IMG/VR virus record: IMGVR_UViG_3300038659_000396
Span: 1 to 20,653 of that record
Strand: one strand, 5' to 3'
Source: a virus
Length of the DNA: 20,653 nt
The position numbers and the translations under genes are program-made. A model generated the notes under the pieces. That model was not told the origin of the DNA. It saw nothing but the letters and a program-made list of their open reading frames with translations, and ran no database searches. This document shows, one piece after another, positions 6,931-20,653 of this stretch (position 1 is the stretch's first letter; the number at the start of each line of letters is the position of its first letter).

Positions 6931-8164
6931 TGCTGTAAATATAAGCAAAGGTAGAATTGGTGCTAACCGATTAGGCAGTAATGATAGCGTGAGTGCTATG
7001 GTATTTATGTACTTGGATGAGCCTGATAACTTTGATGTGGGTCCAGTACACGTTGCCTACACTATGAGCGATGTGGAAGCATTGGGCATTACACAAGCCT
7101 ATGATGATGAAAACCTAACCATTGCACACCGGCATTGTAAGGAATTCTTCCGAAATGCAGGTGAAGGTACTAAGTTGTTTCTCTATAATTCTGATGAAGA
7201 CTTACAAGGTTCTTTAGATCGAGCTAAAAATCTTTTGAATGAAGCCAAAGGTGAAATTAGACAAATTGCATTTATCAACGCTAAACATGTAGATACTGCA
7301 CCTGAAGTGGTGTTGTTAGATGGTATACCTACAGAAGTGCACAAGGCAATCCCACTTGCACAAGGATTATACAATTGGGCGTTTGCTAATTTTATGCCTT
7401 TGCAGATATTACTAGAATGTTATACAATAGCTGATTCTGCAAATACTGTTTTAGATTTGAGAGCTATTCCAGATTTGCAAGCAGATAAAGTAAGCTTGGT
7501 CATTGGACAGGATTATACTTATGCAGCTACTTTACCACATTCCATACGTAGTTATGCAGATGTAGGTACAGCATTGGGCGTTTTAGCTAGAGCAAAAGTA
7601 CATGAAAACATTGGCGACAATGAGCAATATAATCTAACAGATGCAACACGTGGAGCTTGGTTAGAACCCGGCTTATCTAATCATGCTACCAATACAGAAC
7701 TTGCAGAACAATTAGAAACATTTGATGCTAAAGGTTACATTTTTGGAGTGAATTACATTGGCTTAGCTGGTGCAAGATTTAACAACGATCATGTATGTAC
7801 TCCTAAAATTTTGGATGATGACAACAATATAAACGAGCATACTATTGCGTATGGTCGTGTTGCAGACAAAGCGGTGAGAGAATTAAGAACCGCTTATTTA
7901 CCAAAAGTAAAAACGACTTGGAATGTAGATAGTGCAACTGGAAAACTAACAAGTGGAACTATTGTAGCATTGGAAGATATTGGAGATAATGTTTTTCAAG
8001 ATATGTTTGCTAGAGGGGAAATAAGCTTTGGCAAAACAAAGATTAATCCTGAAAGCGATTTATTGGTAGAGAAAATACTACGAGTAAGTTATGTAATTGT
8101 TCCCAAAGGAACAATTAATGAGATAAGAGGAACGATTAATCTAAAAACAAGAGACAATGGCTAG
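6920..8164 (+). CDS. Contractile tail sheath protein (DUF2586 family)
   Basis: A 414-residue protein that fits the DUF2586 sheath family of Bacteroidota Mu-like phages. It starts MSLNAVNISKGRIGANRLG and has the domain with YTMSDVEALGITQAYDDEN and the HRHCKEFFRNAGEGTKLFLY strand. In the middle are the LSLVIGQDY-like strand (VSLVIGQDYTYAA) and VGTALGVLARAKVHENIG. The C-terminal part carries YGRVADKAVRELRTAYLPKV and the final beta strands that hook neighbouring subunits. The sheath contracts to drive the tube through the cell envelope. Gene order (unknown small protein, sheath, tube) is that of Mu L and M. The start overlaps the previous gene by 11 bases and the stop overlaps the tube gene by eight. 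Confidence 0.85.
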   Translation: MSLNAVNISKGRIGANRLGSNDSVSAMVFMYLDEPDNFDVGPVHVAYTMSDVEALGITQAYDDENLTIAHRHCKEFFRNAGEGTKLFLYNSDEDLQGSLDRAKNLLNEAKGEIRQIAFINAKHVDTAPEVVLLDGIPTEVHKAIPLAQGLYNWAFANFMPLQILLECYTIADSANTVLDLRAIPDLQADKVSLVIGQDYTYAATLPHSIRSYADVGTALGVLARAKVHENIGDNEQYNLTDATRGAWLEPGLSNHATNTELAEQLETFDAKGYIFGVNYIGLAGARFNNDHVCTPKILDDDNNINEHTIAYGRVADKAVRELRTAYLPKVKTTWNVDSATGKLTSGTIVALEDIGDNVFQDMFARGEISFGKTKINPESDLLVEKILRVSYVIVPKGTINEIRGTINLKTRDNG

Positions 8165-8601: not shown

Positions 8602-8952
8602 ATGAAAAAAGAAGTAGAAAATACCAGTAGCGCAACACTGCAAATACCCAAAGAAGTAGTTGAAGCTAACAAAGTAAAATACGGCGACAAACTAAGAATA
8701 TTGGAGCTGCCAAAAGATGACGATTACGAAGAAATACTAGAAGTGCTTGCTATTGTTCCCAATCGTTCTGTGGTTGCACAGTTCCAAAGGTTCAAAAACC
8801 AAGATCCTAAGAAGGCTCAAGAAATATTGGTAAAACAATGCTTGCTTACTTCTAAGGATGAAGTAATTGCAGACGATGGCTTGTTTTACGCCACAGTTAT
8901 TGCATTGTCTGACCTTATTCCTATTAGAGAGGGAAAGTCCAGAAGGCTTTAG
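8602..8952 (+). CDS. Tail assembly chaperone, short (zero-frame) product
   Basis: A 116-residue protein in the place of lambda gpG or Mu gp41, between the tube gene and the baseplate genes. It starts MKKEVENTSSATLQIPKEVV, is rich in charged residues, and has a helical C-terminal half (QFQRFKNQDPKKAQEILVKQ and ATVIALSDLIPI). Such proteins bind the tape measure protein and recruit tube subunits, and are absent from the finished virion. The end of the frame carries the heptamer GGGAAAG, at which a fraction of ribosomes should move to the -1 frame (separate entry). The zero-frame stop is TAG at 8950. Confidence 0.75.
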   Translation: MKKEVENTSSATLQIPKEVVEANKVKYGDKLRILELPKDDDYEEILEVLAIVPNRSVVAQFQRFKNQDPKKAQEILVKQCLLTSKDEVIADDGLFYATVIALSDLIPIREGKSRRL

Positions 8953-9143: not shown

Positions 9144-9723
9144 AACCATAGTTATAGATTTAGCCGCTAGATATGCCGCAGCTTTTGGAGTTTTAGCAAT
9201 CAATAACAGTTTTAACACAGCGGTTATAGAAGCCAATGAAAATGATTATGGTTTCGATTTTTACCCTAAGGACAATGCCATACTAGAAGAGTTGACATTT
9301 AAGCATGAAACTCAAGAAATAAAATTCGGGCAAATGCTTACAGGCGCACAAACCAATGTGCTATCTCCTCCTTTGCTATTGGAATTTCAAAGAGAAAAAC
9401 AACTCATAGAATCCCAAGTAAACGGAAGTGATAATATAATAGTTGAGCGTTGGGGAACTAAACCTTGGACAATTGAGATGCGAGGGCTTTTGGTAGATAT
9501 GGAAAACAAAGTCTACCCACAAAGCCAAATAGAAGAGCTTACTCGTTTCTTTGAAATTAATGACATCATAGATGTAGAGGGAATTCAATTTGAAGACAAA
9601 AAGATTGATTCTATTTATTTTCAATCTATACGAATAGAACCTCTGGAAGGCTTTTCAGATACGCTTCAAATTGTGTTGAGTGCAAAAAGTATTAAGCCAG
9701 TAGAATTTAATGTATTTAGCTAA
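9136..9723 (+). CDS. DUF6046-like baseplate or tail protein (place of Mu gpN)
   Basis: A 195-residue protein resembling the DUF6046 proteins of Bacteroidota prophages, which normally sit between the tape measure gene and the hub gene. Recognisable parts are LLEFQREKQLIES, VERWGTKPWTIEMRGLLVDM and YPQSQIEELTRFFE, followed by a C-terminal beta strand pair. By position it matches the Mu gp43/LysM-type hub-cap proteins that connect tube, hub and tape measure. Its ATG overlaps the end of the frameshifted chaperone by eight bases and its stop overlaps the hub gene (TAATG), so the junctions are tight with no scar of a deleted gene. No signal peptide is present. Confidence 0.6.
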   Translation: MSRTIVIDLAARYAAAFGVLAINNSFNTAVIEANENDYGFDFYPKDNAILEELTFKHETQEIKFGQMLTGAQTNVLSPPLLLEFQREKQLIESQVNGSDNIIVERWGTKPWTIEMRGLLVDMENKVYPQSQIEELTRFFEINDIIDVEGIQFEDKKIDSIYFQSIRIEPLEGFSDTLQIVLSAKSIKPVEFNVFS

Positions 9724-13898: not shown

Positions 13899-14658
13899 CA
13901 ATTGGAGCAAACCGCAAGAAGATAATGAACATGCAGGTTATAGCAGTTTAGAAGACTTTAAAATAGGCATAAGCACAGCTGTTCTTTGTGCAGCACGTTT
14001 CTATGAATGCCATTTTGTTGGAGATGCTTATTTATGCAACATCATTAAACAGCTTAATTTACCATTTAAAACTATACAAGAGGTTGATTTCGCAGCAACT
14101 GCACCAGAAGGCTTATGGAATTATTCCAAGCTAAAGGCGTGTAGTATGTTTGAAGCTCCTTTTGTTCATCTTGACAATGATGTGTTTTTGTTGAAAAAGC
14201 TTCCCGAATTTGAAGATTATTTGTTTCAAAGTTTAGAGAGTTTTAATAGCCATCCATGGTATCATGAGCCTATTCAAAATATGCGGACATTATTTGTAGA
14301 CCCTGCCATTTTTAGACCAGACTACCAAGAGGCATATAATTGCGGCATTATAGGTATTGGAAAAAATAACCTAATTAAAGAGTGGATTTTACCTTCTTTA
14401 AGTCTTATTTAAACCGATCAGTTTAAAGAACTCTATAAGAATAAGCCAGCTTTTTATGAAATTGTAGTTGAGCAGTACACCGCATTATGTGCTGCAAAAC
14501 GCCATTATAGAGATGTACAGTTTTTATTACGAGACGACTTTATACAGGAGGATGCAATTAAGCACGGTTTTGTACACATGATTTCTACAAGCAAAAGGAA
14601 TAAAAAAAAGATGCAAAAAATTAAGAATTTTTATAACCGTAATTTTAAAAACAAGTAA
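13882..14658 (+). pseudogene. DUF6734-like glycosyltransferase gene broken by an in-frame stop
   Basis: The 258-codon frame encodes a GT-A-like enzyme of the DUF6734 type. It starts MKAIFSNWSKPQ and has LWNYSKLKACSMFEAPFVHL followed by the DND (DXD-type) metal site DNDVFLLKKLP. A TAA at codon 177 (14410-14412) ends the first part, but the same frame continues without another stop for 81 codons to TAA at 14656. It reads DQFKELYKNKPAFYEIVVEQ, which fits the family's C-terminal helices. One substitution from CAA, GAA or AAA explains the stop. DUF6734 members usually come with surface glycan or tail genes, so the intact enzyme may have modified a phage or host glycan. Without the last third it is probably inactive. 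A sequencing error cannot be excluded. Confidence 0.75.
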
Positions 14659-18503: not shown

Positions 18504-18640
18504 AAATCCAATGGAGGTTAGGATTAAAAAAATGTCCTCCGCTTTTAAAACTTTCTGAGGGATTTAAAACATGAGCCAAACGACTACGGAGGACACAAAG
18601 TCTTCTATGTCGTTTGGCTTTTTTTATTTTAATCCCTCAG
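18504..18640 (+). ncRNA. Strongly structured region with competing helices at the end of the late operon
   Basis: Helix A pairs CTGAGGGATT (18555-18564) with AATCCCTCAG (18631-18640), extended by AAAA/TTTT across a one-base bulge. Helix B pairs AGCCAAACGAC (18574-18584) with GTCGTTTGGCT (18609-18619), perfectly over 11 bp. The loop of B contains CGGAGGACA (18587-18595), a perfect 9-base complement of TGTCCTCCG (18533-18541) upstream. That upstream strand can instead pair with GGAGG at 18513-18517, and AATCC (18505-18509) can pair with GGATT (18521-18525). A switch-like fold or pseudoknot is therefore possible. No coding frame fits. Whether it acts as a free RNA or only as a transcript 3' end cannot be told from sequence. 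Confidence 0.55.
18574..18626 (+). terminator. Rho-independent terminator of the late operon
   Basis: The 11-bp helix AGCCAAACGAC/GTCGTTTGGCT is followed directly by a run of T (18619-18625), a standard intrinsic terminator on the plus strand about 80 bases after the spanin stop. Its loop, 24 bases, is unusually long and itself pairs with the upstream sequence described for 18504-18640. Confidence 0.75.
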
Positions 18641-18682
18641 AACTGCAAAAATAGTAAATAACAAAAATTATATATGAATAAA

Positions 18683-18879: not shown

Positions 18880-18932
18880 CAAGAAAAATAACCCCTGCTT
18901 AACTTCATATTAAGCAGGGGTTATTTTTCTTG
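18880..18932. terminator. Perfect 23-bp bidirectional terminator
   Basis: The 23-base arms 18880-18902 and 18910-18932 are exact reverse complements around a 7-base loop, with core AACCCCTGCTTAA and A-rich/T-rich ends, so a GC-rich stem is flanked by a U-tract on either strand. It lies between the end of the thymidylate-synthase-like remnant (plus) and the end of the TPR gene (minus) and can serve both. A second, weaker inverted repeat, AATTGTAC/GTACAATT (18934-18941 and 18960-18967), overlaps the end of the TPR gene. Confidence 0.85.
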
Positions 18933-20477: not shown

Positions 20478-20523
20478 TTTTTACTAAATAGTGTTATCAG
20501 AGACGGATTTTTTTTGCATTACA

Positions 20524-20652
20524 GCTAACGTTCTTGTATATGAGCTGTGGCGTGTTTTAGCACGAACCTCTCCAAATATAAACTAACTTTGGGAAATCCG
20601 AAAATTTTCCAAATGGGCAAAGACCAAGCCATAGCTTATATACGGTGTTGGC
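20524..20652. repeat. 129-nt fold-back repeat with attC-like ends
   Basis: The element begins GCTAACG and ends GTTGGC, which are near-complementary, and inside them TATATGAGCTGTGGC (20537-20551) pairs with GCCATAGCTTATATA (20628-20642) at 13 of 15 bases. A shorter inner stem includes GGAAA/TTTCC (around 20592-20610). An imperfect palindrome with GCYAAC-type ends resembles integron attC sites or the dispersed non-coding repeats found between genes in many flavobacterial genomes. It may continue beyond the window edge. No integrase gene is visible, and only one copy is in view. Confidence 0.5.
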
Positions 20653-20653
20653 A

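Follow-up and report, generated by a model that had tools for sequence, protein, structure and literature searches.

We identified the fold-back element at the right edge of the window, a viral DNA record of 20,653 bases, as the probable recombination site (an attC analogue) of an integron-like gene-cassette system, a reading to which we assign a probability of about 0.88. From comparison of sequences, the best explanation of the relatives of this element is an integron-like system in Flavobacteriaceae and some other Bacteroidota, and the best explanation of the window copy is that it is the site of a cassette that would lie beyond the right edge of the record.

The window carries Mu-like portal, terminase, head-tail adaptor, protease, capsid and tail-sheath genes among the 10 ORFs scanned. 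The phage genes are followed by a minus-strand operon encoding a J-domain protein and a TPR protein, and then by the fold-back repeat (Table 1). Scans with Pfam and PHROGs detected no integrase among these 10 ORFs. The first-pass annotation had described the repeat as a 129-base imperfect palindrome with an inner pair of 15-base arms. The palindrome is present, folds as a single strand and spans the conserved unit to within a few bases, and the inner arms form 16 pairs, two of them G.T. Comparison with 53 relatives delimits the conserved unit to 124 nt (AACG...GTTG), with GCT before it and GCA after it in the window, and these flanking bases differ between copies. The record stops 3 nt beyond the site. 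A hairpin-like stretch was seen by eye in many aligned relatives at the place equivalent to the internal palindrome. Folded as single-stranded DNA, the plus strand of the window site reaches −18.3 kcal/mol (z −2.44), equalled by 2 of 200 shuffles, and the minus strand folds more weakly (−14.4, z −1.23, equalled by 26 of 200).

Table 1 Features at the right end of the window.
Feature	Coordinates	Strand	Basis or remark
Candidate attC-like recombination site	20527–20650	+	Covariance model R1, 116 bits; sole site in the window; alignment of 54 copies
Left arm of 16-pair L-type stem, GTATATGAGCTGTGGC	20536–20551	+	Pairs with 20628–20643, including two invariant G.T pairs
Right stem arm, GCCATAGCTTATATAC	20628–20643	+	Segment 20543–20546 / 20632–20635 covaries in the family
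Internal imperfect palindrome (apical hairpin, ...AAATCCGAAAATTTT...)	20587–20622	+	Repeat search
Arm preceding AAC, CATTACAGCT	20517–20526	+	Family arm rule
GTT core with the start of the next arm, G^TTGGCA (proposed crossover at ^); record end	20647–20653	+	Sequence
J-domain protein, 305 aa	19560–20477	−	Pfam DnaJ; start codon 50 nt from the site
TPR protein, 203 aa	18956–19567	−	Pfam TPR; no site follows the stop codon

A covariance model built from the family, window copy included, recovered the window site with an E-value of 9.7e-22. With filters off, the window site was the only copy that the model found in the record of 20,653 bases; the other matches were the complement of the site itself (19.5 bits, E 0.023) and 11 more listed matches with E of 1.2 or above. 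An exact 17-mer of the site had no match in viral contigs and the site had no blastn match in phages, while a consensus-like copy (from locus L092) matched one phage by blastn. The blastn relatives of the window site lie on three plasmids, two from Myroides at 90% identity and one from Tenacibaculum at 72%.

A gapped pattern taken from the first copies matched 7 viral contigs and at least 119 stretches of the genome collection, and 118 of the 119 stretches listed are labelled as Bacteroidota, nearly all as Flavobacteriales. One pattern match lies in a Cyclobacteriaceae MAG (L102) and another in a MAG contig labelled Rhodobacteraceae (L104), which may reflect a wrong bin or a transfer out of Bacteroidota. 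We aligned 54 of the 56 non-redundant copies over 132 columns. In this alignment 99.0% of the stem cells are paired, double-change cells number 89 against 27.4 (sd 3.7) in shuffles, and sliding the partner by 1–3 columns reduces the pairing to 24–55%. Two of the five covariation measures did not exceed the shuffles (double-change pairs, 4 versus 4.1; further pair types, 12 versus 12.8). Taken across the aligned copies, the stem is supported by covariation. It contains a freely changing 4-bp paired segment (e.g. agct/agct, gaaa/tttt, gtta/taat) flanked by two unchanging G.T pairs. A third G.T pair follows the AAC/GTT core, and each of the three is found in 54 of 54 copies. The other strand has A.C mismatches at these positions, and thus the displayed strand folds better. 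It is the more stable of the two in 434 of 447 sites and, when each locus contributes a single site, in 132 of 137. This folding strand is, in the relatives, the complement of the cassette genes (the 'bottom' strand). In classical attC, the strand is chosen by extrahelical bases, and the consensus is RYYYAAC...GTTRRRY. The present sites depart from that consensus beyond AAC/GTT: AAC and GTT (usually GTTG) are kept and the next bases vary, as in GTTGGCA, GTTGTAC and GTTGCCA.

Covariance-model searches yielded 361 matches (91 sources) and 217 matches (59 sources), and a profile HMM yielded 511 (150 sources). After addition of long loci and iteration, the set comprised 730 matches in 190 loci, some of which overlap. 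Seventeen genomes, picked for multi-site loci, hold at least 34 to at least 145 sites each, counts that are lower bounds from 150 scored candidates per genome. At least one site was found in 124 of 149 Flavobacteriaceae genomes, with 23 candidates scored per genome, and in 34 of 198 Bacteroidota genomes, with 17 scored. The surveyed family and phylum were identified as Flavobacteriaceae and Bacteroidota from genome G003, which contains the Lacinutrix algicola contig L117. A Persicobacter plasmid (Cytophagales; L198:659–12034) carries twelve model matches with E up to 0.02, all on the plus strand and within 12 kb, and the system therefore extends beyond Flavobacteriia. Flavobacteriaceae are abundant in the sea and, with these site counts, they may hold a large stock of mobile genes that are not annotated as such. 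Family sites also occur in two flavobacterial phages, as in the prophage record of the window: Polaribacter phage P12002L (L199) has one at 14503–14625 (60.8 bits) and Tenacibaculum phage JQ (MT002873.2) has one at 717–842.

Next, we examined the arrangement of the sites. Orientation is uniform in all 114 multi-site loci, which partly overlap, with none mixed; the same was true of all 97 loci with at least two sites in the first, profile HMM set, which overlaps the 114. If the intervals between sites are cassettes, the arm after GTT of one site should be complementary to the arm before AAC of the next, and the two arms of the same site should not be. At least 5 arm nucleotides match in 277 of 339 neighbour pairs, compared with 17 of 442 for arms of the same site, 13 of 313 for neighbours in the reverse sense and 152 of 5000 random pairs. 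In the relatives, the 6–7 nt arm before AAC is the reverse complement of the arm at the far end of the neighbouring cassette. Among 426 pairs with 6–8 matching bases, a G.T position follows seven matches in 308, of which 260 agree at the three bases beyond, and a T mismatch follows six matches in 114.

Over 495 distinct intervals, the arms are complementary across the intervening gene in 417 and unmatched in 78. The unmatched intervals served as a blind test, since their outer arms predict the start and the end of a hidden site of another sequence type. Both predicted arms were present, 60–200 nt apart, in 23 intervals and one arm in 21, with neither arm inside the other 34; in 1540 control trials with foreign arms, both were never found and one was found 36 times. 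We examined 20 of the 23 hidden sites, and 17 of these start with AACG and end with TGTTG or TGTTA, are 123–193 nt long and have other stems, which indicates that the true family is wider than the model. The remaining three, one from L058 and two from L181, differ at their ends and are perhaps not real sites.

The strong covariation, the G.U-compatible pairs and the proximity of the sites to stop codons would also be expected of a structured RNA or a terminator-like element at gene ends, in which the pairing served an RNA. However, the better-folding strand runs antisense to the genes, the window has no Rfam match at the gathering threshold, and such an element predicts neither arms that are complementary across the neighbouring gene nor hidden sites located by those arms. 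We find an RNA scarcely credible, and return to the sites as borders of cassettes.

Cassette genes mostly run towards their own 3' site. Among the matched cassettes, 228 contain an ORF of 100 aa or longer; 223 of them encode the longest ORF opposite the folding strand, its stop lying a median of 12 nt from a site and its start a median of 25 nt from the previous site. A recount that admitted ORFs from 50 aa covered 457 cassettes, of which 377 have the usual sense, 30 the opposite sense and 50 no ORF or a tie. The median cassette body is 646 nt. We put the 322 non-redundant cassette proteins in random order and scanned the first 90, which matched 43 Pfam families in all, none of which matched more than two proteins; at least 41 proteins thus have no Pfam match. 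Defence-like matches were few (19 PADLOC families, none in more than two proteins).

Duplicated cassettes reveal which site travels with the gene. Within genomes, 15 pairs of bodies are at least 99.5% identical at different places, after seven rows for places fetched twice were removed by hand. Thirteen of these pairs share a 3' site with an identity of at least 99%; the 5' site is that similar in 2, both of which lie inside two-cassette blocks. Judged from these copies, cassettes move with their 3' site, which is the gene-plus-attC unit of an integron. A travelling 5' site had been suggested by bodies in different records that share neither neighbour, and was ruled out by the within-genome duplicates.

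Between species, we found 12 pairs of similar bodies (81–98% identity), 10 of them in different genera, including Winogradskyella and Formosa (98.1%) and Algibacter and Lacinutrix (96.4%). The 500-nt flanks of nine cross-species pairs gave no blastn match on either side, and the outer 150-nt flanks are 59–68% identical, compared with a mean of 58.7 and a 95th percentile of 63.3 for random stretches. The 3' site is at least 90% identical in one of the 12 pairs and 64–82% identical in the rest (random pairs, 72.6, sd 8.6). Against expectation, the sites seem to be replaced faster than the genes between species. Near-identical bodies with differing 3' sites, such as L051/L060 and L109/L132, are seen across species, unlike the within-genome duplicates.

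We then looked for a recombinase. The best IntI-like recombinases (373–411 aa) define 20 loci (67,808 bases), 14 of which contain a site. Four of the remaining six gain sites when extended (L176, L177, L179 and L180), giving 18 of 20, and the last two are contig ends (L147 and L148). By comparison, none of 20 control loci from ten of the 17 genomes (129,653 bases), each with one other tyrosine recombinase identified by HMM, holds a site. The array lies downstream of the recombinase, with its genes reading in the same direction, in 16 of the 20 loci. L151/L181 and L152/L180 have their sites on the 5' side of the recombinase with the cassettes reading away, and their recombinases are among the most divergent; an array on the 5' side of the integrase with cassettes reading away is the layout of the class 1 integron.

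The recombinase stop codon is followed by the junction with the first cassette (TT plus arm) at 28–83 nt in 10 loci; an eleventh has it at 168 nt. Four loci (L142, L176, L177 and L195) show the arm of the first detected site only 573–2675 nt downstream, and these distant junctions are probably joints with an undetected site. For L179, the arm of the first site was not found downstream of the recombinase. The bases that precede the junction are alike within two groups, TATATTTG...ATATAAC.AG/TT and ACATATGTTCTATATACAATTG/TT (the slash marks the junction), and by eye both resemble the right half of a site. On these sequence features we take the junction behind the recombinase to be attI-like, a putative entry point.

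Comparison of the array recombinases with known families shows that they lack the insertion specific to IntI. Their catalytic residues are invariant in the 19 aligned, and residues 197–227 and 237–246 of IntI1 (R388), about 41 in all, fall in gaps in at least 90% of the 19. The distance from the catalytic-lysine patch to HxxR is 58–59 residues in the 17 measured, versus 100 in IntI1. A profile of the array recombinases aligns to IntI4 in two pieces, with 64 IntI4 residues set against 21 in the profile, and to XerA in one piece. The best family match is NCBIfam NF040815 ('site-specific tyrosine recombinase/integron integrase'), which is over its cut-off for 3 of the 5 array-side recombinases scanned; this is the group of XerA and the archaeal-type recombinases (PDB 4a8e, 5hxy), and the XerA alignment runs through with no IntI insertion. 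The array recombinases differ from XerA in standing beside cassette arrays and in an extra N-terminal domain. This domain, of about 70 residues, is seen in the array integrases except L151 and has no Pfam name in the five recombinases scanned. The AlphaFold model of one array recombinase (mean pLDDT 83.8, pTM 0.53) comprises this N-terminal domain (residues 11–78, pLDDT about 90), a core-binding domain and a catalytic domain, and its top fold matches, among the best 50 of 202, are XerA and IntI, dominated by the recombinase part. In a tree, 17 of the 20 controls (296–310 aa) form their own clade (99/93), and the array integrases are not separated from IntI1 or from IS91-linked recombinases (monophyly support 31/0). 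The array integrase is often preceded by like neighbours, either a protein beginning MGRAFEFRKARKMKRW or a small CxxC protein with GRxDKKxC; in such loci (L137, L139, L141, L146, L147, L148 and L153) the first cassettes differ by eye.

The element could instead be an ordinary attC of a classical, IntI-served integron, or of an integrase-less attC cluster, that has diverged in sequence. The shared plan is extensive: in class 1 integrons and the Vibrio superintegron, as here, mostly one-gene cassettes each end in a 3' fold-back site, lie in one orientation and have an AAC/GTT core (the R box), a spacer between R and L stems, arms complementary within the cassette, one better-folding strand, and an array with an attI-like junction headed by an adjacent integrase. 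Five of the best array recombinases also match TIGR02249 as whole proteins (180–213 bits), and the array recombinases match IntI4. Passages of two reviews list integrons for Bacteroidota without giving detail (PMC8618304, PMC2426708), and in passages of another report, sites of a Polaribacter phage are taken as attC, one of them being active with IntI1 (PMC9892861). Against a classical attC, no tyrosine recombinase of the 17 array genomes is an IntI over the curated 265-bit TIGR02249 cut-off, the array recombinases lack the IntI1 segments described above, and a search of R388, the carrier of a class 1 integron, with the R1 model gave no site at E up to 1. The flavobacterial sites further differ from integron attC in forming a conserved sequence family of about 125 nt with invariant G.T pairs, and in arms whose 6–7 variable nt end at a G.T pair or a T mismatch. 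We give a classical attC only a small chance.

The first-pass annotation had read the element as attC-like, had likened it to intergenic repeats of flavobacterial genomes, and had set against this the picture of copies scattered without any link to gene turnover. The likeness to flavobacterial repeats was right in substance, the site family being common in Flavobacteriaceae, and among the relatives the copies are not scattered in that way. The attC-like reading is strongly supported by the oriented arrays, the paired cassette arms and the duplication of genes with their 3' site, and further by the recombinase with an attI-like junction that heads the arrays and by the strand-biased fold; a classical attC read by a classical IntI has no such support, since the adjacent recombinase lacks the IntI-specific insertion. 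We therefore describe the system as working like an integron, on the basis of its single orientation, complementary arms, 3'-site duplication, array downstream of the recombinase and attI-like junction, and do not file it as a classical integron, given the missing insertion of about 41 residues and the lack of an IntI over the cut-off in the 17 genomes.

The sequences themselves show the anatomy of the system. A cassette usually consists of one gene with one site at its 3' end, and cassettes stand head to tail beside the tyrosine recombinase gene, mostly downstream of it and co-directional, the first being joined to the attI-like sequence just behind the recombinase stop codon. We propose that such a system would operate as follows. 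The strand complementary to the genes would fold into a hairpin, the recombinase would cut at AA^C / G^TT, and cassettes would be excised and re-inserted one strand at a time. In a free circular cassette, the two arms beyond the core would pair and complete the outer stem, and the invariant G.T pairs would keep a good fold on one strand only and so direct the choice of strand. The proposed crossover between G and TT of the GTT core is drawn from the ends of cassettes and the attI-like junctions in the relatives.

Other known systems share parts of this arrangement. In the 'reverse' integrons of Spirochaetota, the integrase reads in the cassette direction, a layout like that of the 16 flavobacterial loci; those integrons differ in having an IntI. 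Typical Spirochaetota IntIs are described as being in reverse orientation in passages of the archaeal integron paper (PMC9668308), where the additional domain is also called a defining feature. Phage P12002L shares the host family with the present sites. The attC report on this phage describes a CALIN with two DNA methyltransferase genes (PMC9892861); methyltransferase genes are annotated at 29–32 and 38 kb, where R1 lists no site at E up to 1, and the phage has the one present-family site given above. According to parts of the IntegronFinder 2.0 survey, complete integrons are mostly found in Gammaproteobacteria (93%), and one is named in Bacteroidetes proper, in Salinibacter (PMC9024848). Passages of one survey indicate that integrases were chosen by the additional IntI domain (PMC2426708), and the use of this domain as a criterion may explain the absence of the present system from the surveys consulted. 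In parts of a survey of tyrosine recombinases, the insertion 'is not fully conserved' in an integron-like subgroup (PMC8138268), and therefore insertion-less relatives may already be present in databases. We found no description of the flavobacterial system among the listed papers and passages of open PMC text.

We lean slightly towards the view that Bacteroidota possess a very large integron-type system of their own, in which the Xer/XerA-like recombinase lacks the IntI-specific domain and the strand would be chosen by the invariant G.T pairs of a distinct family of fold-back sites, in place of extrahelical bases. If this is true, the capture of single-stranded cassettes arose more than once, or works without a domain that has been held necessary, and the resistance genes aadS, blaMYO-1 and perhaps estT would be cassettes of this Bacteroidota system. 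The flavobacterial system would provide a natural test of strand choice and of the role of the IntI-specific domain.

These resistance genes lie on plasmids, where aadS, blaMYO-1, a GNAT gene and estT adjoin family sites in the usual sense. On the Myroides plasmid (L002:5090–8760), aadS has matched arms, the arms of blaMYO-1 match at 5 of the first 6 bases, and those of a GNAT gene match at 6, the gene being placed between two sites near 7986 and 8643 that were recognised by eye and not by the model; the arms of blaOXA do not match. The 5' arm of aadS adjoins other DNA and not a site; the junction, behind an IS91 element, is at TT, which points to G^TT as the joint. On the Riemerella plasmid (L197:4001–5060), the stop codon of estT is about 22 nt from a site. 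Sites at the ends of resistance genes on such plasmids would mark a route that is invisible to a search for IntI only.

The association with IS91 raises another reading, in which the sites are the ends or targets of plasmid elements made of IS91 and a tyrosine recombinase and not part of a host cassette system. In L004, two sites are each followed by the identical bases GTTGAACTAATCCTCGTACC, with an IS91 and tyrosine recombinase pair just beyond. This reading is at odds with the chromosomal arrays, which have tens of sites and stand beside a different recombinase: the IS91-linked recombinases score 220–241 bits on the array-integrase profile, versus 390–554 for the proteins behind that profile. 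We regard the chance that IS91 elements account for the sites as very small; they look like users of the sites of a host cassette system. Sites followed directly or nearly so by GTTGAACTAATCC... are seen at L004:6003–6128 and 9229–9353, in L025 and L067, and in L002 near 8640–8770. The IS91-family transposase and tyrosine recombinase in L004 stand just past the sites, as if inserting at the same joint.

Finally, we returned to the J-TPR operon of the window, which the first-pass annotation had suggested might be a cassette. The window supplies neither a 3' site of its own for the operon nor a matching arm. Over the whole window, the site model finds no site after the TPR gene, and the predicted partner arm GTTAGCTGTA is absent as an exact match from the plus strand. 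With up to 1 mismatch on both strands, the arm gave 5 matches against 2.48 expected by chance; the only exact match is the arm itself, and the two plus-strand matches, at 301 and 3004, each carry one mismatch and are remote from the TPR gene. In the family, a site belongs to the gene whose stop codon precedes it on the gene strand. By this rule, and since it is the J-domain start codon, not a stop codon, that lies near the window site, we assign the site to a cassette beyond 20653. The J-TPR operon could be the body of the next cassette. The missing 3' site would fit a phage insertion that split the body, and would equally fit an operon that is no cassette. The J-domain and TPR proteins have no relatives in the 190 site-bearing loci. 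Two inverted repeats, at 18553–18642 (16 bp, 94%) and 18880–18932 (23 bp, 100%), stand between the last rightward phage ORF and the J-TPR operon. The repeat at 18880–18932 looks like a terminator common to both sides, and that at 18553–18642 may lie near the end of the prophage.
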